Source of the DNA: a virus
Strand: one strand, 5' to 3'
Length of the DNA stretch: 64,000 nt
IMG/VR virus record: IMGVR_UViG_3300034418_011250
Location: 1 to 64,000 of that record
In this document: positions 3,510 to 59,255 of the stretch, piece by piece
Layout: the number at the start of each line of letters is the position of its first letter
How positions within the stretch are numbered: position 1 is the first letter of the stretch
Program-made: the position numbers and the translations under genes
The notes under the pieces: generated by a model
Database searches by the model: none
What the model was told of the DNA's origin: nothing
The model's input: only the letters and a program-made list of their open reading frames with translations

Positions 3510-6500
3510 ATGGCAATAGCAGACGAAGAAAAACGGTTTAAAAAACTTCTTGGTGAGTTAAGAGAAACTAATCAAGAAATAAGAAAATCAACAACAAAAA
3601 ATGAAGCAGCAACAGCTGTTGTTGATATTATAAGAAATGATTTTGATACACTGGTTGGTGATATTAAAACTCTTGGAAATGATATTGCATCTTCTGTTCC
3701 TGGATTGCGTTCTGTTGTTGGAATAGGAAAATATTTTGGTGGAAAAGCAACTAAAGGATTAGTAGATTTATTTAAATTTGAAAATAAAGAACAAAAAAAA
3801 CTTAGGGAAAGTTTAGGTTTCAATTCTAAAAAAGAATTTGAACTAGCTAAAAAACAAGCAGATAAAAACAAAGCTAAAGAAGATGCAAGCCTAAAACAAC
3901 TTGAATTAATACAAGAAAGTATTAAAATTTTAGAACCTTCATTGACACCAGATGAATTAGCTAAAAAATTAGAAGATTCAGCAAAAAAATATGGGGTTGA
4001 TAAACAATTTATTAATAAATTTTTAGGAAAAAAAGAACCAGTTGAAGCAACTTTAGCAGACAGTGTTGTAAAAGCAATTACACCAAAAGATGATAAAAAA
4101 ACATCCGCAGATCTTGAAGCAAAAAGAGATGAACAAAAACTTGCAGAGAAAAATACTAAAATCTTAGAAACAATCAATGATTCTGTTCTTGGATTAGGCA
4201 AAGGATTAGATAGTTTAAAAGAAAAAAGTGGATTTGGTCTTGGTTTAATTGCTGCCCTGATTGCTGCTCCAGTAATTGCTTTGGTAGAATTCTTCAAAAC
4301 TATAGGAAAAGATTTAAAATTTTTAACAGATTTAAAAATAGGTGATGTATTTAAACCTCTCAAAGGATTGGTTAGTTTTTTTGACAAAATAGTAGATGGT
4401 TTCAAAAAAACTAAATTAGGAGAATATTTTTTCAAAAATTTATCATTAGATTTTTTATTTGATTTGTTTGACAGTGTATCATTAGTTTTTGATGGAATCA
4501 AAAACACATTTAAAAGAATAATTAATCCTATCAAAAGGTTTGGATCTTTTATAGGCAGAATAATCAGAAGTGTGTCTGCAAGTATAAGAAGATTTATAAC
4601 TCCCATCGTAAGAATTTTTGAAAAAATAATTGATATAGCAAAGAGTGCTGCAGGGTTTTTAAATGGATTTAGTTTCATAGGAAATATAGCAAAAACAATT
4701 GGTAGAGTATTAGGAAAATTATTTCTTCCTATTACTGTTATTATGGGTGTATTTGATTTTGTTTCTGGTTTTATGAAAGGATACGAAGAAGGTGGTATAA
4801 TTGAAGGTATTAAACAAGGTGTTATAAATTTTCTAGATGAAGCTATAGGTGGTATATTAAGGATGCTAACAGGTGCAGCTGCTTGGATTCTTGAGTTTCT
4901 AGGATTTGATAAACTTGCTGCATCACTAACAGCTGAAGTAGATAACATATTAGATGCAGTATTTAGTGCTGTTTCTGGAATTGTTGATATTGTTGTTGGA
5001 ATTTTTACATTTGATGCAGGAAAAATACTTGGTGGATTGGGACAAATATGGGATTCAATTACAGGGATATTCCTTTCTGCATTTAATATTCTTGAAGCAT
5101 TTGTAAGTGATATATTCGATTTTCTTGGATTTGATATTAGTTGGAATCCATTAACTATTATCAAGAATTTCTTTAGTGGTGTTTATGATTTCTTCGCAGA
5201 TCTTTTCGGATTTGGTTCTGATAAAGAAGCCGAAGTTGAAGGAGAAGCCTCGACCAGTCCATTTGATGTTGTTAAAACTTTCTTTGGTAATGTGTTTGGT
5301 TATATAGGTGAGAAATTTACTGCATTTAAAGATATGATTTTTGGATTTCTTCCAAGCCTACCTTCAATATCCGAAATTACAGATAGTTTAATTAACTTTG
5401 GAAAAATGATCTACAATCCAGAAACTGGTGAAGTATTTGGATTTACACTACCAGAACTTCCGAGCATTTCCGATATATGGGGAATGGTGACAGGATTTGC
5501 AAGCAAAATATATGATCCTGCTACTGGTGAAGTATTTGGATTCAAGTTGCCTGAATTACCTTCTATTTCTGATATTTTTGATACAGTTGTATCCTTTGGT
5601 AAAAAGATATATGATCCTGCTACTGGTGAAGTGTTTGGATTCACAATGCCTGAATTACCTAGCATTTCTCAAATATGGGATACTGTTACAGGATATGCGA
5701 AGAAAGTGTATAATCCAGAAACTGGTGAAGTATTTGGGTTTAAACTTCCTGAATTGCCTAGTATTTCACAGATATTTACTACAGTAAAAGATTTTGCTAG
5801 CAAAATTTATGATCCAACTGCTGGAACAGTATTTGGTTATTCTCTACCAGAATTACCCTCAATAAGTCAAATTTGGGATAAAATTTCTGGATTTGCCATG
5901 AAAATTTATGATCCAACTGCTGGAACAGTATTTGGTTATACGTTGCCAGAATTACCTAGTATTTCTGACATATTAACCAAAATAACTGATTTTTCTAAAA
6001 AGATTTATGATCCAACTGCTGGAACAGTATTTGGATTCGCACTTCCAGAACTACCATCCATTGCAATGATTGTTGATAAAGCAAAAGAGTTTGCTTACAA
6101 GATATACAATCCTGAGACTGGTCAAGTATTTGGATATGCATTACCAGAATTGCCTTCAATATCTGATATAACAAATAAGATTATTGACTTTTCTAAAAAG
6201 ATTTATGATCCAGAAGCAGGAACAATATTTGGATTCTCGCTTCCAGAACTACCTTCAATTAGTCAAATTACAGACAAAATTGCAGGATTCGGAAAAAATA
6301 TTTACAATTCTGAGACTGGTGAAGTGTTTGGATTCTCAATGCCTGAGTTGCCAAGTATTTCAGATATTACATCAAAAGCTGAAGATTTTGCTAAAAACAT
6401 TTACAATTCTGAAGATGGAACAATATTCGGATTTGCATTACCAGAACTTCCAAGCATTTCTGATATACAAACCAAATTGGAAGGATTTGCAAAGAAAATA

Positions 6501-7811
6501 TATGATTCTGAAACAGGGACAATATTTGGATTTGCGATACCAGAATTGCCATCTATTAATGACATTACAACAAAATTAGAGAATTTCTCTAAAAATATAT
6601 ATGATTCAGAAACTGGCTCAGTATTTGGTTACACATTACCAACATTACCTTCAATATCAGATATTCTAACGAAGGCAACAGAATTTTCTAAGAAAATATA
6701 TGATCCAGCAACAGGTGCTGTATTTGGATTTGTTTTGACAATGCCTGCACTTCCATCAATTGATGACATTAAAAATAGCATCTTGGGTATGATTCAAGAT
6801 GTCTGGAATTACATCAAAGGATTATTCAAATTTGATACGTTCTCAGATGCACTAGCTTCTGCTATCAATATATTCTTTATGCCTTACAATTTAATTCTAG
6901 GAATGGTTGAAAGCGTTTGGAACTACATCAAAGGATTATTTGGATTTGATACTACACAAGTTAAAGAACCAGCAGAATCAACAGCTGTAGGTGGTGTAGG
7001 TGGGCTTGTTGTGAACTTCTTAAATCTGGCAATTGATAAAGTCAAGAATCTGTTCAATTTTGATTCGATATCGAAAACATTAGAAACTCTAAATCCATTA
7101 AAACTTCTTACAGATTTTGGAACTAAAGTAGGCAATTTCTTTGATGGTATATTTAATTTTGACGGGATAAAGAAAACATTAATGGATAATATTCCATTTG
7201 CAGATGTTTTGTTTGGAGATGGAGGAGATAGTCAAGAAGAAGCCAAAAAAGAAGCAGTTCCATCTATCAATATTCAACCAATTGATTCAAAAAGTGTTCT
7301 TTCTAGCATATTTGGTGAAGTAAACATACTACAAGAACTTGGAATCATCTTTGGTAATTTAATTGATAATCTTGTCACATATCTTGATACATTCCTTGGA
7401 GAAGCATTAGGAACACTTTATACATCCAGAAAAGAAAGTTATGAAGATTTACAAAGTGATCTGAAGGATGAGTTGGAAGAATCTAGTCCTGACGAAGATG
7501 ATCTTAAAAAATTAGCATTGAGGGCTAAAGAAATTGGTCTAAGTCGAGACCAATTTATAAGATTGGCAAATAACCCATCTGTTGATCTTGCTACACTCGA
7601 GGCATCTACAAATGGTGTGAACAATAGAACATTGTCAATGGAAGAAGGATCTAAAGAGATGGCTGCAAATCAACAGCCAGTAGTCATTAACAATGTCACA
7701 AATAATAATGTAACACAAGGTGGTGGAGGTGCTGCTGTAATTCCAATGCCTAAACCTGTCACCAATCCTCATTCACAACTACTGGCTGCTGTTGCAGCTA
7801 GTGTTCTTTAA
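3510..7811 (+). CDS. tape-measure-like tail protein with 33-aa repeats
   Basis: This 1433-aa protein is the longest gene in the window. It has a charged coiled-coil N-terminus (about 1-230), a hydrophobic segment near 240-262, a helical region, then about 14 tandem 33-residue repeats (about residues 634-1094) with consensus IYDPxTGxVFGFxLPELPSI plus a variable helix. An acidic helical C-terminus follows. Its place after gp26/gp51 matches the tape measure position (T4 gp29, about 590 aa), and repeats in multiples of 11 with regular aromatics are typical of tape measures. If all residues count at about 0.15 nm each, the tail would exceed 200 nm, so part of it may do something else. Confidence 0.55.
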   Translation: MAIADEEKRFKKLLGELRETNQEIRKSTTKNEAATAVVDIIRNDFDTLVGDIKTLGNDIASSVPGLRSVVGIGKYFGGKATKGLVDLFKFENKEQKKLRESLGFNSKKEFELAKKQADKNKAKEDASLKQLELIQESIKILEPSLTPDELAKKLEDSAKKYGVDKQFINKFLGKKEPVEATLADSVVKAITPKDDKKTSADLEAKRDEQKLAEKNTKILETINDSVLGLGKGLDSLKEKSGFGLGLIAALIAAPVIALVEFFKTIGKDLKFLTDLKIGDVFKPLKGLVSFFDKIVDGFKKTKLGEYFFKNLSLDFLFDLFDSVSLVFDGIKNTFKRIINPIKRFGSFIGRIIRSVSASIRRFITPIVRIFEKIIDIAKSAAGFLNGFSFIGNIAKTIGRVLGKLFLPITVIMGVFDFVSGFMKGYEEGGIIEGIKQGVINFLDEAIGGILRMLTGAAAWILEFLGFDKLAASLTAEVDNILDAVFSAVSGIVDIVVGIFTFDAGKILGGLGQIWDSITGIFLSAFNILEAFVSDIFDFLGFDISWNPLTIIKNFFSGVYDFFADLFGFGSDKEAEVEGEASTSPFDVVKTFFGNVFGYIGEKFTAFKDMIFGFLPSLPSISEITDSLINFGKMIYNPETGEVFGFTLPELPSISDIWGMVTGFASKIYDPATGEVFGFKLPELPSISDIFDTVVSFGKKIYDPATGEVFGFTMPELPSISQIWDTVTGYAKKVYNPETGEVFGFKLPELPSISQIFTTVKDFASKIYDPTAGTVFGYSLPELPSISQIWDKISGFAMKIYDPTAGTVFGYTLPELPSISDILTKITDFSKKIYDPTAGTVFGFALPELPSIAMIVDKAKEFAYKIYNPETGQVFGYALPELPSISDITNKIIDFSKKIYDPEAGTIFGFSLPELPSISQITDKIAGFGKNIYNSETGEVFGFSMPELPSISDITSKAEDFAKNIYNSEDGTIFGFALPELPSISDIQTKLEGFAKKIYDSETGTIFGFAIPELPSINDITTKLENFSKNIYDSETGSVFGYTLPTLPSISDILTKATEFSKKIYDPATGAVFGFVLTMPALPSIDDIKNSILGMIQDVWNYIKGLFKFDTFSDALASAINIFFMPYNLILGMVESVWNYIKGLFGFDTTQVKEPAESTAVGGVGGLVVNFLNLAIDKVKNLFNFDSISKTLETLNPLKLLTDFGTKVGNFFDGIFNFDGIKKTLMDNIPFADVLFGDGGDSQEEAKKEAVPSINIQPIDSKSVLSSIFGEVNILQELGIIFGNLIDNLVTYLDTFLGEALGTLYTSRKESYEDLQSDLKDELEESSPDEDDLKKLALRAKEIGLSRDQFIRLANNPSVDLATLEASTNGVNNRTLSMEEGSKEMAANQQPVVINNVTNNNVTQGGGGAAVIPMPKPVTNPHSQLLAAVAASVL
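5409..6790 (+). repeat. 99-bp coding tandem repeats (33 aa x about 14)
   Basis: About fourteen direct repeats of 99 bp lie head to tail in the tape-measure-like gene, each encoding a copy of IYDPxTGxVFGFxLPELPSI plus 13 variable residues. A degenerate half-copy (LPSLPSISEITDSL) precedes them and the last copy is altered (VFGFVLTMPALPSIDDI). Codons differ between copies while the peptide is conserved, so this is old and under selection. Adjacent copies 5-7 are the most alike. Confidence 0.9.
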
Positions 7812-7814
7812 AAC

Positions 7815-8702
7815 TTACTCGTTAGCAAGTTTCTCAAAATAACTCATTGCACTGTCTTCATCATCATCTTCAGTTACCATACTTGGGACTGGAGATGATT
7901 TGTAGGAAGGTGTATATTCTTCCTCATCATCAATCACTTCAGCAATTGGTTTACCAACAGACTGTTTGCCAGTCAAAACAGCATCCAGCCTTTTTCGAAG
8001 CTCATCATAACTCTTGAAGTTTGATTCTCCAAGAAAGTCAGAAAGAGAATGTGTTTTGGAAATCACTTTCTCAATCTTATCATCATCACCAATCTTTGAA
8101 ACTTTGTCAAATTCGCTCTTGTCATAATTCCAGTAACCATCTACCTTGCGAATCTTCAGTTTGAAATTTGCTCCTTCCCATGCATCAAATGGATTGATCG
8201 GTGTTTCATCTTCAAATTCTGGTTGCATTGCTTCCATGATTTTGTCAAAGATTTTCTTGCCATACTTGTAAAGCATGACTTTACCTTCATTATCAGGATT
8301 TGATGAATCAGAAACAACCAACACATTACTGTAGTATTGTAGCTTGCGTTTTTGTTTTCGAGCAATCTCTTTATCAGTCTCAATGCCTGAATTCCAAAGC
8401 CCAGAGTTATGCTCGCAACATGGACATTTTCCGTTAACGGATGTCAAGCAATTCTCAATAAACCACATTCCAGTTGGTCCTTGGAATGCGTGATTCCATA
8501 CACGAACCCATGGAAGTTGATCTCCTTCTGTAGCTGGAAGAAATCTTAGAACAGCAAATCCATTCCCAGATTTATCTACCTGTGGCTTCCAAAGTCGATC
8601 ATCAATGTATGATGCTTTTTCAGTTGGGGATTCTTCTTTTGCTACTTGAGCCAGAAGTTTGTCGAGTGCGTTGTTTTTGCGAAGTGAGCTAATGTTAGAC
8701 AT
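7815..8702 (-). CDS. 32: gp32 single-stranded DNA-binding protein
   Basis: This 295-aa homologue of T4 gp32 (301 aa) starts at ATG 8702 with GGAG upstream. A longer frame to 8753 lacks support. The basic N-terminus (MSNISSLRKNNALDKLL) resembles the cooperative B domain. The core has DDRLWKPQVDKSGNGFAVLRF and a zinc site NCLTSVNGKCPCCEHN near residues 80-95. The C-terminus is strongly acidic (TEDDDEDSAM), as in the A domain that contacts gp59, gp43 and other partners. It coats single strands in replication and recombination. It converges with the tape-measure gene with only 3 nt between stops. A promoter at 8765-8793 precedes it. Confidence 0.93.
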   Translation of the reverse strand: MSNISSLRKNNALDKLLAQVAKEESPTEKASYIDDRLWKPQVDKSGNGFAVLRFLPATEGDQLPWVRVWNHAFQGPTGMWFIENCLTSVNGKCPCCEHNSGLWNSGIETDKEIARKQKRKLQYYSNVLVVSDSSNPDNEGKVMLYKYGKKIFDKIMEAMQPEFEDETPINPFDAWEGANFKLKIRKVDGYWNYDKSEFDKVSKIGDDDKIEKVISKTHSLSDFLGESNFKSYDELRKRLDAVLTGKQSVGKPIAEVIDDEEEYTPSYKSSPVPSMVTEDDDEDSAMSYFEKLANE

Positions 8703-8764
8703 GGTATTCTCCGTATGTTGTCGTATGTTTAAGTATTTCACAAATTTCATCATATATCTTATTT

Positions 8765-10700: not shown

Positions 10701-11294
10701 CTACAGCATATTGATAAGATATTGTTTGCATCTTTTTATATCAGTTTCTATAAAAGATGCATATTTAAGAATAAGATTACGTTTCTGTGGCCATACAATG
10801 TTTTCCTTTATATCACGATCAAATTGATCTAGATAACTCAGAATCTGATTGAGTATGACCATTGTTTCGAGGTGAATTTGGCCACCAAGAAATCTCTTTA
10901 ATAATAGCGGATGTTGTCCTAAAACGCAAGTGAAAAGTGTATTGAAGTTGGAAGAATCAATTGATTCTGTTCTGAGAAGTTTTTCCATATCTGTCTGAAA
11001 AACATAACCAATACTCTGTTGAGTCTTTTTCCAATCAATGTAAGTCTGCTCATCATAATCACCAATCCATGCTTTTGGATTCTTGATTATATTAGCGACA
11101 AAATAGTCAAGTGTATTATCACCATACTTACGACCAATCCGATGAAAGAAAAATCTATCGTTTCTTTTAAGAAATGAAGACTTCTTTGCATTTGTTTTGC
11201 CAGAATACTTTTTAAAATCATAATGTTCTTTGGTAAAATGTAGTTTTAAGCCAAGATAGATTTTATAGGCATCCCAACTTTCCATAGCAAACAT
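10701..11294 (-). CDS. 59: gp59 helicase loader
   Basis: The protein (197 aa from ATG 11294) aligns by eye with T4 gp59 (217 aa): AYKIYLGLKLHF, then FLKRNDRFFFHRIGRKYGD, PKAWIGDYDE in the middle, and LETMVILNQILSYLD near the end. gp59 loads gp41 helicase on gp32-coated forks and gates the polymerase. Neighbouring gp33 repeats the T4 order. ATG 11294 has AGGAG 5 nt upstream. However, a strong promoter overlaps it, and its predicted start falls one base before the next in-frame ATG (11285), so a leaderless form is possible. The longer TTG-like start at 11321 is unlikely. Confidence 0.88.
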   Translation of the reverse strand: MFAMESWDAYKIYLGLKLHFTKEHYDFKKYSGKTNAKKSSFLKRNDRFFFHRIGRKYGDNTLDYFVANIIKNPKAWIGDYDEQTYIDWKKTQQSIGYVFQTDMEKLLRTESIDSSNFNTLFTCVLGQHPLLLKRFLGGQIHLETMVILNQILSYLDQFDRDIKENIVWPQKRNLILKYASFIETDIKRCKQYLINML

Positions 11295-11321
11295 TATACT
11301 CCTTCTCAGGAAAAATGTCAA
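11293..11321 (-). promoter_or_regulatory. strong sigma-70 promoter overlapping the gp59 start
   Basis: Minus strand: TTGACA (11316-11321), exactly 17 bp, TATAAT (11293-11298). The last bases of the -10 box overlap the gp59 ATG and the expected start is near 11286. Transcripts from it would start at or inside gp59 and continue to gp32. Confidence 0.75.
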
Positions 11322-11327
11322 GTATTT

Positions 11328-11561
11328 TTATACAGGTAACTGAGAAACTTTGGGGATAAGATTGAGTTTCATAGCGTCCACTTCAATCTTTTCTTTAAGA
11401 GGTTTGGTAATAAGTGATGCCACAGTTTCTGGTTCTATTTTGTTTTCAGAACAATATTCCAGAACTGCATCAAGATATGAGATACCAGTTCGATTTACAA
11501 ATTCTTCAATCTCATATGAAAATTTTTTCGCACTCATAATTTTTAATTCTTCAAACATCAT
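11328..11561 (-). CDS. 33: gp33 late-transcription coactivator
   Basis: This 77-aa protein matches the core and C-terminal part of T4 gp33 (112 aa): IEEFVNRTGISYLDAVLEYC, then NKIEPETVASLI and KEKIEVDAMKLNLIP. gp33 bridges RNA polymerase and the gp45 clamp and is required for late transcription. All partners are in the window (gp45 at 50512, gp55 at 60332, gp44/62). It is shorter than T4 gp33 at the N-terminus. The start is set by AAGGA about 8 nt before ATG 11561. Placement next to gp59 is as in T4. Confidence 0.88.
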   Translation of the reverse strand: MMFEELKIMSAKKFSYEIEEFVNRTGISYLDAVLEYCSENKIEPETVASLITKPLKEKIEVDAMKLNLIPKVSQLPV

Positions 11562-12160: not shown

Positions 12161-12337
12161 TTATTCTCCTTTGTGTGTGTGAAAAAGTGTTGCCATAATT
12201 GTTTTGAAAATGTTTTTTCTTTTGCTTCTTTTCTCTTCCAGAAAATCAGCATATGCATATTCCCAATCATTTTTGTATTCTGCCTTAAAATATGATTTTA
12301 ATTCAGAATTGTCATGATGTAAGCATGAAAGATCCAT
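12161..12337 (-). CDS. 58-aa small protein downstream of the tmRNA
   Basis: A short frame from ATG 12337 (AAGGA 7 nt upstream) to TAA 12161: it starts MDLSCLHHDNSELKSYFKAE and ends TIMATLFHTHKGE. The last codons also hold the GGAG ribosome site of the next gene. No family recognised. It is the first coding frame after the tmRNA, so the RNA must be cut out of the same transcript or made separately. Confidence 0.55.
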   Translation of the reverse strand: MDLSCLHHDNSELKSYFKAEYKNDWEYAYADFLEEKRSKRKNIFKTIMATLFHTHKGE

Positions 12338-12361
12338 GTTACTTTTCCTTATGTGTGTGAT

Positions 12362-12605
12362 GTGAATGTGGCAATTCTGTTTCTAGGTTTGCCACAAACC
12401 CACCTGCATCAAGCAGCCAAAGCTACTTGCGCAGAAGAATAATCAGAGTTGTTTGCCTCTAATTGAATTAGTGTTGGTCACTACCCTATTTGCTCTCTTT
12501 GCTATTTTCTTTTCTAGTCGAATGCCTTTACACCCCCATGTGTTGAAAAGAATATGGTGGAGGTGGCAGGAATCGAACCTGCGTGCTAAAAAATATCTTC
12601 ACATG
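12362..12605 (-). ncRNA. ssrA: permuted two-piece tmRNA (ssrA)
   Basis: On the minus strand the acceptor piece comes first (about 12605-12555), ending in a T-arm GCAGG-TTCGATT-CCTGC and CACCTCC-A-CCA. A 17-nt intervening loop (12538-12554) follows, then the coding piece starts at 12537 with GGGGGTG. GGGGGTG pairs all seven bases with CACCTCC, including a G3-U70 wobble, the alanine identity pair. CTAGAAAA of the coding piece can pair with TTTTTTAG of the acceptor piece (P2). The coding piece carries an in-frame tag ending ALAA plus stop, and a hairpin of TAGTG with CACTA before it. This gene order is that of alphaproteobacterial and cyanobacterial permuted tmRNAs, which rescue stalled ribosomes. 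The outer 5' and 3' ends are estimates. Confidence 0.93.
12409..12456 (-). other. tmRNA proteolysis tag ANNSDYSSAQVALAA
   Basis: From resume codon GCA at 12456 the frame reads ANNSDYSSAQVALAA and stops at TGA 12409-12411. The AN start and ALAA end are typical of SsrA tags recognised by ClpXP. The middle differs from tags I remember. Confidence 0.92.
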
Positions 12606-12764
12606 TCAACAAGCAAATTCTTTTAGCTGTTCCTTTGCAGATTGTTCTCGTTTCTGAGTATTGATGTTCCATCGACCTTCATTATTACCCAGCCATCGAT
12701 GTGTGGTGCAAATGGTGCAGCGTACTGTCCTTTTTGATGCTTTTCTGCCTTTTCTTTTTTTCAT
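12606..12764 (-). CDS. 52-aa basic, cysteine-containing small protein
   Basis: A frame from ATG 12764 to TGA 12606. It begins MKKRKGRKASKRTVRCTICT, then HRWLGNNEGRWN, and ends KEQLKEFAC. A basic leader, CTIC pair and TTHRW suggest a half zinc finger, as in small phage zinc-ribbon proteins. The ATG overlaps the TGA of the upstream gene (ATGA), which supports it. Its stop lies directly at the estimated tmRNA 5' end. Confidence 0.6.
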   Translation of the reverse strand: MKKRKGRKASKRTVRCTICTTHRWLGNNEGRWNINTQKREQSAKEQLKEFAC

Positions 12765-13147
12765 AATGCCATACTGTTATCTGGATCAATCGGAATACCT
12801 TTAAACGGATCTGTCGAATTATCATTCGGCACCATACCACCATCAGGAGGCATAATTGTTAATTTAGTTCCTATTGCTAAAACACATGCCCAGTTTGTGT
12901 TATATACTTCGATGATTGAATATGTTTTTGTTTGGAAATTGTGAGCAATGATAACCTTTGCAGACATTGTTCCTTGTTGTGCTTGCAAAGTAGTGTCACC
13001 ATACATTACAGGATAATCACCTCTTTGCTCCGCAATTGCTACAACATTCTGTAATGGTGCACAAAAGATTGGCTTGTTTGCCATTTGTTGAGCATAAAGT
13101 GTACTGGTTGCAAATAGTCCACTAAGCAGTAGCAGAAATTTCTTCAT
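12761..13147 (-). CDS. secreted / periplasmic small protein
   Basis: I place the start at ATG 13147, with GGGAG upstream. The frame can be read from 13180, but the extra residues are not signal-like. The first 20 residues form a signal peptide (MKKFLLLLSGLFATSTLYA, cut before QQ). The mature part has two cysteines and ends with a proline- and aspartate-rich tail (MPPDGGMVPNDNSTDPFKG). It overlaps the upstream nuclease by 26 nt in another frame. Export to the periplasm is likely, but the role is unknown. Confidence 0.6.
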   Translation of the reverse strand: MKKFLLLLSGLFATSTLYAQQMANKPIFCAPLQNVVAIAEQRGDYPVMYGDTTLQAQQGTMSAKVIIAHNFQTKTYSIIEVYNTNWACVLAIGTKLTIMPPDGGMVPNDNSTDPFKGIPIDPDNSMAL

Positions 13148-13817
13148 TTTCTTTCTCCCATTGAGTTGTAAATTCATCAATGGTTTCTACAAGAGGTTGA
13201 AGATAAGGTTTCTTTTCTTTCACAAACTCTTGAACAGTTCCATCCTCAGTTGTTGTTAGAATCACAACCTGATTGATTGGTGTTCCAGTCATTTCTTCAT
13301 ACATCTCTGTATAGGCAGAACCTTGAATGTAATAGTCTGTATTATATTCATCGTTTCGTTCTGACTTGGACGTCTTGAAATCAATGACAGAAAGTACACC
13401 TTTCCATTCACCAATACAATCAACACGTCCTGCCACACGGTATTTTTCGCTCCACATTGCCTGTTCTTGTAGATGAATATTATTCAGATTCTCATCCAGA
13501 ACAGGCTTTAGTTGTGTGAACATACACCATGGTAGAAACTTTTGTTTATGATGTTCTATGTCACTATTATTTATATAGTCTTCACAAATCTTATGAAAAG
13601 CTGTTCCTCTTGATGCAGATGTTCTTGAAATATAATTGGCAACATCATAACCAACAGAAGCTCTCCATTCTTTCAACCATTTTTTCTTTCTTTCTGTTGC
13701 TCCTAGGACTGTGGTGATTGAAGGAAATACACCACCAGATTCAGTGAAATAGAATCGTTTTCCATCTACTGTTTTAGCAGTGGCTTCTGGTAATGAAATG
13801 TTCAGATGCTTAAACAT
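13122..13817 (-). CDS. RecB-like PD-(D/E)xK exonuclease
   Basis: The 231-aa protein shows the RecB/Cas4-type nuclease core. It has H in RGTAFHKICEDY (about 75-86), GRVDCIGEWKG (the acidic D after GR), VIDFKTSK (D...K), and YYIQGSAYTEMYEE (the QxxxY motif). Related enzymes in marine T4-like phages are annotated as exonucleases and probably process host or phage DNA ends. It is followed by a secreted protein gene that starts inside it. It lies downstream of the strong promoter at 13991-14019. Confidence 0.8.
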   Translation of the reverse strand: MFKHLNISLPEATAKTVDGKRFYFTESGGVFPSITTVLGATERKKKWLKEWRASVGYDVANYISRTSASRGTAFHKICEDYINNSDIEHHKQKFLPWCMFTQLKPVLDENLNNIHLQEQAMWSEKYRVAGRVDCIGEWKGVLSVIDFKTSKSERNDEYNTDYYIQGSAYTEMYEEMTGTPINQVVILTTTEDGTVQEFVKEKKPYLQPLVETIDEFTTQWEKENEEISATA

Positions 13818-41752: not shown

Positions 41753-42305
41753 GCATTTTTTTCATGAATTCTACAATTTTTTCTGTATCATCTGGAGTCT
41801 CGTGAACAAACGTCTTCACGCAGCCTTCTTCCTCTCCGAAAAGAGTAGCTCGTGGTCCAAAATGCTCAAGAATATTTTGAACCTTTGTCTTGGTAGTCTG
41901 AATGAATTTTTCAGATTGATCAGATCCTCTTTCTTTGTATCTTCGTTGTCTTTCTTCATCTGAAACTGTCAAGTGAATAATTGTCAACGAATCACCACAT
42001 GATTCAAAAAACTTCTTGTTGTTGAGACGATCTCCTTCGCCCACAATCATCTCATTTGTTCTCAAAACATTTGAAATCCAATCAATTGCTTTCGGAGCCA
42101 CTGCCATCGAAAGTCGATCTGTTCCTCCAAAAACTTCTTCATCATTATATTTTCCAAGCACTCTCAATTTTTTTTCTTTAATATATTGAGTATCAAGTAA
42201 ATCAGCTGGACGATCATCCTTCCAACCTTCAAATCCACTCATAAAGTTTCGCATCACAGTGGTCTTTCCAGTTCCTGGAATACCAATCAAATAAACTATC
42301 TTCAT
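41739..42305 (-). CDS. P-loop kinase, candidate 5-hydroxymethyl-dU kinase
   Basis: The 188-aa protein starts MKIVYLIGIPGTGKTTVMRN (Walker A GIPGTGKT, residues about 8-15), with NEMIVGEGDRLNNKKFF and IIHLTVSDEERQRRYKERGS, like adenylate or polynucleotide-type kinases. P-loop kinases in phage base-hypermodification clusters phosphorylate 5-hydroxymethyluracil in DNA. Its stop lies near the following promoter and its start overlaps the TET/JBP-like gene by 4 nt. The substrate is inferred from context. Confidence 0.6.
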   Translation of the reverse strand: MKIVYLIGIPGTGKTTVMRNFMSGFEGWKDDRPADLLDTQYIKEKKLRVLGKYNDEEVFGGTDRLSMAVAPKAIDWISNVLRTNEMIVGEGDRLNNKKFFESCGDSLTIIHLTVSDEERQRRYKERGSDQSEKFIQTTKTKVQNILEHFGPRATLFGEEEGCVKTFVHETPDDTEKIVEFMKKMLDIS

Positions 42306-43726
42306 TGAAAAAATCCTTCTAATGTAGGTTTTTGAGCATATGCTTCTGGATGATATTCTTGCACCATATCCCTTCCACCTTTGTCCTCTAGAAAATCATA
42401 CCATTCTTTCTCATTGAACATATTCGGTGAAACACCATTCCAATATTGTTTCCAAAGTCTATGACCTTTATTCAATCTCCTTGTGTCAACAAAGTTTTTA
42501 CGAATAGCTTCATATTCCCATGATCCAAGATTATCCATATCTTCACGGAAATAGAATACTAATGACATTCTCATCATGTTTTCTTCACCAGAATCTGGAG
42601 CAGTAATCGGTGTATTCCCATGAATAACACGCATGTTGTCAATTAGCAAAAGATCTCCAGGTCTGACATTGACAGCCATCCGAACTTCTGGAACAACCAA
42701 ATATCCACCTTTCCAGTCTTTGTTATCCTTTGTGATTACTGTTAGATTGCTATATCCAGCATTCAAAGAACCTGCATCTCGATGACATGCCATTCTGGCA
42801 TTTCTTTCCTTTGTTGTTGTATTGACAGTAATCGTGGTGAATGTAGTATCTTCGCCAATGAGAAATTTATTGTCGAGTCTATCAGCAAATTCTTGTTGTG
42901 CCAAATGTCGATTTGGCATTAGTCTTTTGAATTCTTTCTCCAGTTTTCTAGCAAACGGATAACATTTTGCAAACTGCTCAAGATTATTATCAGTATATGC
43001 TGTTGCTCTTCCATATGGAATTCTTGGATATCTTCCATAGTAACCAGCAATACCTGACCAAAGACCAGCAGCATATGCTGTATTTGAAATCCATTTTTCT
43101 CTTACAAGTTTTGAAAACTTTGTTGCCTCTTCAATTGGCATTGCTTTTATTCTACTCACCAGCTTAGGAAAAAATCCATCATATTCAGGATAATCTTGTT
43201 CTACAACATCTCGCAACCAACAGAATCCTCTGGTATTCTTGACATATTTTCCAAGATGTTCTTCCATAATAGTCTGTAATGGATCTGTTCCATCAAGACT
43301 TTTTGGTTGTCCTGCCATAAAATACTCAAGCACATCATATTGATATGGTGTTACCCATTCTCTTCCTGCTAGCTTTTCTGTTTTTGGACCAGCTGCGAGT
43401 CCTCGATTATGAGATTCAGCTGCAGCATCAAACAATCCTTCAAATGCACCTTGTTGTTCCTCAGCAGTAAAAACATTTTTTCTAAATTTAAAAGCAATTT
43501 TGCTTTCATCCGCAAGATCTGTATGATACTCTTTTTTATCATAATTGTATTCAGGTGGAAAGTATAAATCTGTATCACTATCAATCAGAATATCATATGA
43601 TTCATCATTAACATATGTTCCCAAAACTTTTTCTTCATCAAGAACCTGCATGGCAACATAAACATCTTGTCCTTCATCCCCTTTATATTTCTGCCACTTA
43701 TTTCCATTTATTTCTAAAATTTCCAT
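42302..43726 (-). CDS. TET/JBP-like 2OG-Fe(II) dioxygenase
   Basis: The 474-aa protein has a TET/JBP-like core: CHRDAGSLNAGYSNLTV (H315, D317), GGYLVVPEVRMAVNVRPGDL, and IDNMRVIHGNTP (H369), then an arginine near 386 for 2-oxoglutarate. It has a long N-terminal region of unknown role. In trypanosomes JBP hydroxylates thymine, and phage relatives hydroxylate 5mC or thymine. Here, next to a kinase and an aGPT-PPlase-like gene, thymine to 5-hydroxymethyluracil in DNA is the simplest guess. No methyltransferase gene for 5mC is in the cluster. Confidence 0.7.
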   Translation of the reverse strand: MEILEINGNKWQKYKGDEGQDVYVAMQVLDEEKVLGTYVNDESYDILIDSDTDLYFPPEYNYDKKEYHTDLADESKIAFKFRKNVFTAEEQQGAFEGLFDAAAESHNRGLAAGPKTEKLAGREWVTPYQYDVLEYFMAGQPKSLDGTDPLQTIMEEHLGKYVKNTRGFCWLRDVVEQDYPEYDGFFPKLVSRIKAMPIEEATKFSKLVREKWISNTAYAAGLWSGIAGYYGRYPRIPYGRATAYTDNNLEQFAKCYPFARKLEKEFKRLMPNRHLAQQEFADRLDNKFLIGEDTTFTTITVNTTTKERNARMACHRDAGSLNAGYSNLTVITKDNKDWKGGYLVVPEVRMAVNVRPGDLLLIDNMRVIHGNTPITAPDSGEENMMRMSLVFYFREDMDNLGSWEYEAIRKNFVDTRRLNKGHRLWKQYWNGVSPNMFNEKEWYDFLEDKGGRDMVQEYHPEAYAQKPTLEGFFQ

Positions 43727-55937: not shown

Positions 55938-56777
55938 TTAATAACTTTGATTTAAACGCCAAACGAGATATTCTTTTGCTCCAATGGTATCATATTTTTG
56001 TTCACCTATCAGACTATCAACCTTAACATCATCTCTTGGATGAACAAAATATGGAAAACTGAAACGACTGATATTCAGATGCTCATTTACGACACGATGC
56101 GGAGTTGAGACATAAATATCATTAGTCCAGCGTTGAAGCAAATCTCCAACATTTACAATACAAGTATTTGTAATGTAAGGAGCATCAATCCATTCATCTG
56201 TTCCTCTTGGCTTTATTTGTAATCCAGGATTTTCATCCGTGAATAAAATTGTAATTGTTCCATAATCCGTATGTTCTCCTCCACGCATTTGATTTTCTTG
56301 TATTCTACCATTCCAAGCAGGATAATGTAGCATTCTTGCTGTAGTAGATGAAGATTCTCTATGTTTATCAATCAAAAATAATTCTGGCAAATCTAATGCT
56401 TTTTCAATCAACCATAAAATACGTTTACTAATAAGATCTAATACAAGATTCCATTCTAGACATATATCTTCAAATCCTCTATCTGGCCATTTATTGTCAT
56501 CACCATACTTACACCAATTGAATGCCTCTTTTAAATCAGGAGGTGTTCCTGGAGTCAAACTTTCTATCATCCCTTGATATCCAGTGTTTGATTCTGTTGA
56601 TGTGTACTTGTATTTGTTTTTTTCATCAATTGGTAAAGCAAAAAATTTCTTAGCATGATTCAATATTTTTGGCCATGTTGTTTGCGTTTCAAAATAAGCA
56701 AACCCGATGGTCTTGAATGCTTCATCTAATTTAATATGAGCATCATCATCTAAATGATTTATAATTGGTATTTTCAT
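55938..56777 (-). CDS. IPNS-type 2OG-Fe(II) oxygenase
   Basis: The 279-aa protein resembles isopenicillin-N-synthase/gibberellin-oxidase types: IPIINHLDDDAHIKLDEAFK with TIGFAYFE, NTGYQGMIESLTPGTPPDLK, GGEHTDYGTITILF (HxD), STPHRVVNEHLNISRFSFPY (H and RxS). Host origins are likely as a metabolic gene. Possible substrates are small molecules. It follows the BMP gene, separated by a hairpin. Third 2OG oxygenase in the window. Confidence 0.85.
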   Translation of the reverse strand: MKIPIINHLDDDAHIKLDEAFKTIGFAYFETQTTWPKILNHAKKFFALPIDEKNKYKYTSTESNTGYQGMIESLTPGTPPDLKEAFNWCKYGDDNKWPDRGFEDICLEWNLVLDLISKRILWLIEKALDLPELFLIDKHRESSSTTARMLHYPAWNGRIQENQMRGGEHTDYGTITILFTDENPGLQIKPRGTDEWIDAPYITNTCIVNVGDLLQRWTNDIYVSTPHRVVNEHLNISRFSFPYFVHPRDDVKVDSLIGEQKYDTIGAKEYLVWRLNQSY

Positions 56778-57954: not shown

Positions 57955-58284
57955 TTATTGTCGATATCTCATTAATCTGGTGATTTTTCCATTATCATCA
58001 TAATTAATGACATAAACTTGATTATATCCTTTTTGATTATCCATCATTACAGTTAATTGAGCAAACACGACATTTCCATTTGTTGCCATATTATCAATAT
58101 GGTTCACAAGCATAACTGATGACGAAAAATAATTTGTGTAATGCTCATAAATCTTAGGTTTTGTTGTAATAATGTTATTCCAATCATAAAAAACACATAT
58201 GTCACTAAAGCATTCTAAAACACATGTGGAATCTTTTTTATTCAAACATTGAAAGAAAGTTGCAGCTTGTTTTATAAAATTCAT
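57955..58284 (-). CDS. NTF2/SnoaL-like small protein
   Basis: A 109-aa protein: NFIKQAATFFQCLNKKDSTC, CFSDICVFYDWNNIITTKPK, then IYEHYTNYFSSSVMLVN and QLTVMMDNQKGYNQVYVINY with DDNGKITRLMRYRQ. This is the cone-shaped NTF2-like fold seen in SnoaL and steroid isomerases. The ligand is unknown. It overlaps the SbmA-like gene by 1 nt. Confidence 0.7.
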   Translation of the reverse strand: MNFIKQAATFFQCLNKKDSTCVLECFSDICVFYDWNNIITTKPKIYEHYTNYFSSSVMLVNHIDNMATNGNVVFAQLTVMMDNQKGYNQVYVINYDDNGKITRLMRYRQ

Positions 58285-59255
58285 TATGCCTTGAATTGTT
58301 TTTCAAATTCACGAAGTCTTTTGTATACACTCATAAGTTCTACAATTTGCAACCAACTACGAATAATAAATTGCAAACTTTCTGCAACTTTACCGAATGC
58401 TCTTGTTGTTTGACTCACGATTCCTAATGTGATTCCACCAGCAATGATGCTTGGTCCAAGCGCAACATAAGGAACAATCACCATACCTTGCAAATAACTC
58501 CATTTTGCAATATTGAAATAAAAGTAATGCAAATAAGAATGAAAATGAATTGCTTTTACATTATCGAATAATTCTTCTACAGTTGACAACTTTGCTCTTG
58601 TTTTTTTATCTTCGCCATGAACCAATTCTTTTCTGTAAGCAGCTTCTTCTTTTTGAATATCGTATTCAATTCCTGGAAGTTTAGAACCAATTGCGCTTAA
58701 AACAGCTGTTCCACCCAATGCTGTAACAATCACAGCCCAAACAAGTCCATGATCTACTTGCCCAAAAATAGGAAATTCTGTAACTGCTTTACTCAGTCCA
58801 TATAGAATAGGAACAAATGCAATCAACATCAAAACTGATTCAAGTAATCCAACACCAAGATTCTCAGTTAATCTAGCAAATTTTAATGTGTCTTCTTGAA
58901 CACGTTGACTTGCACCTTCAATGTGTCTAACCTTTTGCCAGTTCTCATGATAATAATCTGCCATACTTTGTCGCCATCGAAATGTCCAATGATTAACTAA
59001 GAATCCATTGAAGATCACATTCACTATAATGTAAATACCTGCAATGCTGAAAAAATCAAACATGTATCCATAATATTCATCATAACTTACAGATCCAGGT
59101 TCAGACAATGCCTTCTGAAGTGCATCGTAAAATCTTCCAAACCATTCATTAATTTGAACATCTAATTGAACACTATACCAAATTGCTGCAATAATGGTTA
59201 ATGTTCCAAGTCTACTCCATAGTCTCCATCTTTTATCAGTAAAAAATCTAAACAT
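58284..59255 (-). CDS. SbmA/BacA-like inner-membrane transporter
   Basis: The 323-aa protein is of the SbmA/BacA family. Landmarks are RWRLWSRLGTLTIIAAIWYS, INEWFGRFYDALQKALSEPG, HWTFRWRQSMADYYHENWQK, IEGASQRVQEDTLKFARLTE, LPGIEYDIQKEEAAYRKELV, and the C-terminal IIRSWLQIVELMSVYKRLRE. It has several membrane helices. Bacterial members import peptide antibiotics, and related proteins import cobalamin. No ATPase domain. It is likely a host-derived accessory gene. Placed between gp47 and the NTF2-like gene. Confidence 0.85.
   Translation of the reverse strand: MFRFFTDKRWRLWSRLGTLTIIAAIWYSVQLDVQINEWFGRFYDALQKALSEPGSVSYDEYYGYMFDFFSIAGIYIIVNVIFNGFLVNHWTFRWRQSMADYYHENWQKVRHIEGASQRVQEDTLKFARLTENLGVGLLESVLMLIAFVPILYGLSKAVTEFPIFGQVDHGLVWAVIVTALGGTAVLSAIGSKLPGIEYDIQKEEAAYRKELVHGEDKKTRAKLSTVEELFDNVKAIHFHSYLHYFYFNIAKWSYLQGMVIVPYVALGPSIIAGGITLGIVSQTTRAFGKVAESLQFIIRSWLQIVELMSVYKRLREFEKQFKA

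Follow-up and report, generated by a model that had tools for sequence, protein, structure and literature searches.

A circularly permuted tmRNA gene in a fixed slot of marine T4-like phages

Why do phages carry a gene for transfer-messenger RNA (tmRNA)? The question is raised by a locus in the first 64,000 nucleotides of the IMG/VR virus record IMGVR_UViG_3300034418_011250 (hereafter the window, meaning that whole stretch), which comes from an uncultured marine T4-like phage whose record, at 88,934 bp, is probably incomplete. Judging from the sequence, we consider it very probable that this locus encodes a working phage-borne tmRNA (ssrA) in the permuted two-piece form, which would give the phage extra ribosome rescue with a tag of its own. 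The parts of this reading that have direct support are an intact gene, a fold under selection, a tag under purifying selection and a conserved slot between two phage genes. The original prediction, made from the letters alone, knew of no described phage example, but Buchholz et al. reported a two-piece tmRNA in the OM43 phage Melnitz in 2022 (PMC9004378), and GenBank annotates SsrA in Melnitz as well as in phage Mosig; the tmRNA studied here is an additional member of the phage tmRNAs already reported. What is new is the fixed slot across phages and the conservation of the tag: in a literature search that left out preprints and most subscription papers, we found no paper stating that the slot is fixed, that the RNA has evolved by compensatory change or that the tag is under purifying selection.

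The gene and its parts

ARAGORN reports a complete circularly permuted tmRNA gene with the tag ANNSDYSSAQVALAA on the minus strand of the window at 12318-12647, an extent that represents the precursor with assumed flanks. The Rfam model RF04321 (tmRNA_permuted) matches positions 12617-12409 end to end (model positions 1-213) with 86.4 bits against a cut-off of 47, at an E-value of 3.5e-15 for the 64-kb window and 1.2e-18 when the whole record is searched. This match is far beyond chance, and tmRNA is the sole RNA family above threshold in the window; ARAGORN finds no tRNA across the whole 88,934-bp record. The claim of a phage-encoded, circularly permuted tmRNA, with which this work began, is thus borne out by both programs, and the positions given for it at the outset (the CCA at 12555, the start GGGGGUG at 12537, and the tag) proved exact on the minus-strand sequence. 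The covariance-model check proposed along with that claim gave a divided answer. Namely, the merged model RF04321 passes, but the older clade-specific models, among them the two that had been named, stay under their thresholds: the Rfam scan of the window gave no match at gathering score for RF01849 (alpha) or RF01850 (beta), with beta_tmRNA reaching 55.7 bits at the locus against a threshold of 84, and the rest of the overlapping models in the clan scoring lower.

The acceptor piece, with the T-arm and the CCA, stands ahead of the coding piece, as in permuted two-piece tmRNA. The parts are listed below, with remarks from an alignment of seven distinct sequences, namely the window and the related viral loci L413, L415, L417, L418, L043 and L069 (numbering ours); a pair is called double-changed where both of its sides have changed.

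12611-12618, minus strand: H5 strand of the acceptor piece, pairing with 12488-12495 (8 pairs, one of which varies yet stays paired)
12586-12593, minus strand: H2 strand of the acceptor piece, pairing with 12510-12517 (8 pairs, 4 of them double-changed, every cell paired)
12566-12582, minus strand: T-arm GCAGG-UUCGAUU-CCUGC, with a compensatory change to GCCGG/CCGGC in L043 and L069
12565-12559, minus strand: acceptor 3' strand CACCUCC, followed by the discriminator A (12558) and the encoded CCA (12557-12555), all read from the sequence
12538-12554, minus strand: 17-nt spacer between the two pieces, from the CCA to the acceptor 5' strand, presumed removed, with putative cut sites
12531-12537, minus strand: acceptor 5' strand GGGGGUG, with which the coding piece begins
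12510-12517, minus strand: H2 strand of the coding piece, from comparison of relatives
12488-12495, minus strand: H5 strand of the coding piece, from comparison of relatives
12469-12483, minus strand: stem 1 of the putative pseudoknot PK1 (UAGUG/CACUA), 5' of the tag, with two double-changed pairs and all cells paired
12409-12456, minus strand: tag frame ANNSDYSSAQVALAA with the stop UGA, from ARAGORN and codon comparison with L043
12367-12396, minus strand: 8-bp hairpin towards the 3' end of the coding piece, with 5 of 8 pairs double-changed

The D-region lies between the acceptor 5' strand and the H2 strand of the coding piece.

Selection on the fold and on the tag

In the seven-sequence alignment, the six helices hold standard pairs in 99.7% of 287 cells, and 13 of the 41 pairs show double-sided changes, amounting to 26 such cells as compared with 7.8 in shuffles (0 of 500 shuffles reaching that number). 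One caveat on this test is that the window sequence was used to name the helices; another is that the aligned relatives share ancestry, which means that the shuffle result alone is not a probability; the controls, in which the partners were slid by 1-3 columns, agree with it, with pairing falling to 44-51%. The two 7-nt acceptor strands pair completely (7 of 7) and include G3-U70, just as originally read, and this G3-U70 pair is invariant in all seven sequences while a nearby acceptor pair covaries; in L415, for instance, the stem is compensated to CAUCUCC/GGGGAUG. Across phages more widely, acceptor pairs 5-7 covary (GGGGGUG, GGGGGCG, GGGGUGG, GGGGCUG, GGGGUAG, each with its matching 3' strand), and no change is seen in the first four pairs, which include G3-U70, except in two loci that our script placed poorly. 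H5 is nearly invariant in the aligned relatives. Co-folding of the two pieces gave -79 kcal/mol and retained the acceptor stem and the 3' hairpin; it assigned other partners to the AU-rich H2 and H5 strands and to part of the T-arm, and H2 and H5 therefore rest on comparison and not on the energy model. For the putative PK1, the covariation concerns stem 1. Taken as a pattern of sequence change, these comparisons indicate that the fold is under selection.

Is the peptide maintained as well, or just the RNA that encodes it? The tag ANNSDYSSAQVALAA has 15 amino acids, begins with a GCA alanine resume codon and ends in ALAA before the UGA stop, and that of L043 and L069, ANNSDYSPAQVALAA, is nearly identical to it. 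Over the matched part, the tmRNA of L043, a phage without the slot genes, is about 76% identical to that of the window, and 10 of the 16 codons differ between the two tag frames, nine of them synonymously (with the stop codon counted) and one nonsynonymously (Ser to Pro). In the 45 sense positions there are 12 nucleotide changes, which alter one residue where 7.5 would be expected, and none of 20,000 simulations, which assume that every change is equally likely, gave a number as low. Given so few residue changes despite the drift of codons, the peptide, beyond the RNA, appears to be maintained by purifying selection. Related phages carry many different tags, some of them 24-29 amino acids long (L010, L035, L036, L037).

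A second group of phages (L009, L005, L015, L048, L059 and others) has a permuted tmRNA that is 83-86% like that of the window from the T-arm to the D-region, with a frame of 26 amino acids, ANENFVPGAFTSLDMSMASEGELLAA, which ARAGORN missed.

The slot between exonuclease and gp33

The tmRNA gene of the window sits between the genes for a PD-(D/E)XK exonuclease and for gp33, on the same strand as both, with small open reading frames (ORFs) flanking it on either side. The cultured phages Melnitz, Mosig and HTVC008M have a permuted tmRNA in the same slot and on the same strand; in Synechococcus phage S-PM2 there is no tmRNA at that place, the gene for the exonuclease overlapping that for gp33. For a wider count, loci were drawn from IMG/VR through similarity of the exonuclease and of gp32, and not through the tmRNA. 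In 48 of the 91 loci that hold both exonuclease and gp33, ARAGORN calls a permuted tmRNA within the slot, on the same strand as the flanking genes, and Rfam detects a tmRNA in 9 of 19 loci that were negative with ARAGORN. After removal of six contigs fetched twice, a slot tmRNA is present in at least 53 of 85 contigs, a fraction that applies to near relatives only, because the query alignments came from tmRNA-bearing phages. The ARAGORN counts are lower bounds, since these 9 and all of the tmRNAs with a 26-aa tag (the L009/L015 group) were missed. In 17 loci the exonuclease and gp33 lie within 53 bases of each other, leaving no room for a tmRNA. What is more, tmRNA distance tracks exonuclease distance (Mantel r 0.66, p 1e-4, 50 loci), which suggests that the gene has long resided in these phages and descended with them, rather than having been captured anew from each host.

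The copy in the window may nevertheless have a history of its own. With 58-66%, its exonuclease is closest to the Melnitz clade, yet its tmRNA is just 40-52% alike there and 73-77% alike to those of L043 and L069, the closest ones, which carry nearly the same tag and lie near ribonucleotide reductase and tail-fibre genes, unlike in the window. We therefore lean towards an old slot in which, in this lineage, a tmRNA of Melnitz type was replaced by that of another phage, a reading that concerns the origin of the copy and is compatible with a working tmRNA. The T-loop of the window, UUCGAUU and not the alpha-type GCAGUA, fits such a replacement, but slot phages include T-loops intermediate between the alpha and canonical types, so that a gradual change is possible too. 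On pairwise likeness, phage-to-phage replacement would be the simplest reading. When 12300-12650 was compared as DNA with 50,697 phage records, the only matches were tRNA-like ones of 31-38 bases, and a stricter pattern with the D-region motif of the window had no match in 84,980 bacterial and archaeal genomes; no cellular donor is therefore identified.

The record otherwise has the look of a T4-like myophage, with gp32, gp59, gp33, a T4-type DNA polymerase, a DnaB-like helicase, PhoH and gp23 nearby, and among isolates Methylophilales phage Melnitz comes nearest to it (66% identity in the polymerase, 60% in the exonuclease). The neighbours of the tmRNA are the following:

13122-13817, minus strand: PD-(D/E)XK exonuclease, bounding the slot upstream (phrog_298, 231 bits; PF12705)
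12606-12764, minus strand: 52-aa basic ORF with a CxxC motif, of no family, 88-100% identical in the relatives covering it
12161-12337, minus strand: 58-aa ORF directly 3' of the tmRNA, 63-98% identical in relatives
11328-11561, minus strand: gp33 late-transcription coactivator, bounding the slot downstream (PF16805, 83.4 bits)
10701-11321, minus strand: gp59-like helicase loader (phrog_269)
7815-8753, minus strand: gp32-like single-strand DNA-binding protein (phrog_224, 366 bits)

At its 3' end, the 52-aa ORF overlaps the start of the acceptor piece, with its stop codon just behind the H5 strand; since this conserved ORF ends at the H5 strand, its translation and the processing of the tmRNA may interfere. 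In a promoter scan, the sequence directly upstream of the tmRNA showed no sigma-70-like site, and matches did not exceed those in shuffles.

Farther away, the window encodes a 323-aa protein of the SbmA/BacA peptide-importer family (58284-59255, minus strand; PF05992, 442 bits), which seems unusual in a phage, a 474-aa protein with a Tet_JBP oxygenase domain (42302-43726, minus strand; PF12851), possibly for DNA base modification, another 2OG-Fe oxygenase (55938-56777) and a 1433-aa protein (3510-7811, plus strand) with about 12 repeats of the type LPELPSISDI...KIYDPETGEVFGF.

Function, hosts and known relatives

What would such an RNA do for the phage? Its processing, charging, use of SmpB, role in proteolysis and benefit we infer from established tmRNA biology. 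In particular, host tRNA-processing enzymes would probably cut the transcript in two, the acceptor piece ending at 12555 and the coding piece beginning at 12537, and the acceptor stem, H2 and H5 would hold the two together; host alanyl-tRNA synthetase (AlaRS) would charge the RNA through G3-U70, and host SmpB would bring it to ribosomes stalled on broken messages. The nascent chain would then be extended by an alanine and, after it, by ANNSDYSSAQVALAA, and would be destroyed by a host protease that reads the -LAA end, for instance ClpXP. The benefit would be extra ribosome rescue during message degradation and the shutdown of host transcription, and the position beside gp33 and the replication genes suggests early or middle expression. 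The roles proposed in the literature for phage tmRNAs are to keep up the translation machinery or to tag host proteins (PMC9004378).

Several points weigh against this reading. SmpB and SspB were sought in the 88,934-bp record and not found, nor was SmpB found in 26 related viral records, which implies dependence on the host; that host SmpB and AlaRS can work with this RNA is an assumption. The gene is missing from many relatives, so that it is not essential to the group.

Would the tag act differently from that of the host? The original prediction supposed a pelagiphage or SAR11 phage, which was a guess (the nearest isolate, Melnitz, infects OM43), and proposed that the tag may differ from the host's and so could redirect stalled ribosomes. 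The tag is indeed absent from the 23 SAR11 genomes compared, which have permuted tmRNAs with the 9-aa tags ANESYALAA, ANESYAIAA, ANDKFALAA, ANNKFALAA and ANQKFALAA; when host tmRNAs of OM43/Methylophilaceae were sought, the small genomes of the sampled order matched the permuted model only weakly. It is likely, from a host-tag comparison covering SAR11, that the tag differs from that of the phage's own host. Divergence is not universal, however, since locus L294 bears exactly the SAR11 tag ANESYALAA in the same slot.

A different use of the RNA would be competition, in which it mainly contends with host tmRNA for SmpB and ribosome sites and swaps the tag, redirecting or weakening host quality control. 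We think this improbable. A tag-less phage form does inhibit E. coli tmRNA (PMC11915505), and the tag, at 15 aa, is unlike the 9-aa tags of SAR11, while tags vary among related phages, up to the 24-29-aa forms; yet pure competition would need neither the complete, ALAA-ended tag seen here nor its conservation at the peptide level, and the exact SAR11 tag of L294 also speaks against it. Still far less probable is a captured host gene kept by chance and now functionless, left for example by imprecise prophage excision at ssrA. Although tmRNA genes are common integration sites, and such an origin was raised for Melnitz (PMC9004378), a relic would decay, whereas here we see compensatory base changes and a nearly synonymous-only drift of the tag; this maintenance of fold and tag argues against a captured relic, and on it we rejected the prophage idea. 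The same slot recurs in many lineages, and a tyrosine integrase was sought in the 88,934-bp record and not found. Beyond a working tmRNA for ribosome rescue, a more speculative and rather doubtful extension is that marine T4-like phages run lineage-specific tagging, with a tmRNA inherited in the fixed slot by gp33 and a tag that each lineage keeps by selection, so that products of ribosomes stalled during infection would bear a phage tag other than the host's and be handled unlike host-tagged proteins.

How does this gene compare with known systems? A count of two-piece tmRNAs among phage genomes gave 53, 50 of them marine or aquatic, and 17 of 47 Melnitz-related contigs were reported to have one (PMC9004378), and a tmRNA database paper lists 79 bacteriophage tmRNAs (PMC11915505). 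Like the window, SAR11 bacterial tmRNA is permuted, has G3-U70 and a tag ending in alanine-alanine; it differs in its 9-aa tags and the T-loop GCAGUA, and the phage RNA is not close to it in sequence. Melnitz EXVC044M (MZ577097), a T4-like phage, shares the permuted form, the slot and the strand order, along with the related polymerase noted above, but its tag is ANDNYVPVDYALAA, its RNA is alpha-type (RF01849, 106.7 bits), its spacer has 142 nt and a glutamine riboswitch follows directly behind, whereas the window has another tag, no alpha or beta model over cut-off, a 17-nt spacer and, in window or record, no riboswitch (RF01739) by the same models that detect the one of Melnitz. The SsrA of Pelagibacter phage Mosig EXVC030M (MT647606) is likewise permuted and lies between a PD-(D/E)XK nuclease and gp33, but it is alpha-type (RF01849, 67.6 bits) with the tag GEDNFALAA. 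In the same phage (L437, 665-872) we noticed that a rubrerythrin gene is preceded by a manA RNA motif (RF01745, 64 bits).

Through the fixed slot, three cultured phages, Melnitz, Mosig and HTVC008M, become available for testing why phages carry a tmRNA. HTVC008M infects the cultured SAR11 strain HTCC1062, in which tagged peptides and the two RNA pieces could be searched for directly. The tmRNA of this Pelagibacter phage (KC465899; L438, 1621-1962) is unlisted in the annotation as shown. It is permuted and occupies the same slot as that of the window (RF04321, 90.6 bits), and it differs in carrying the tag ANFNEYALAA and in being alpha-type (RF01849, 83.8 bits).
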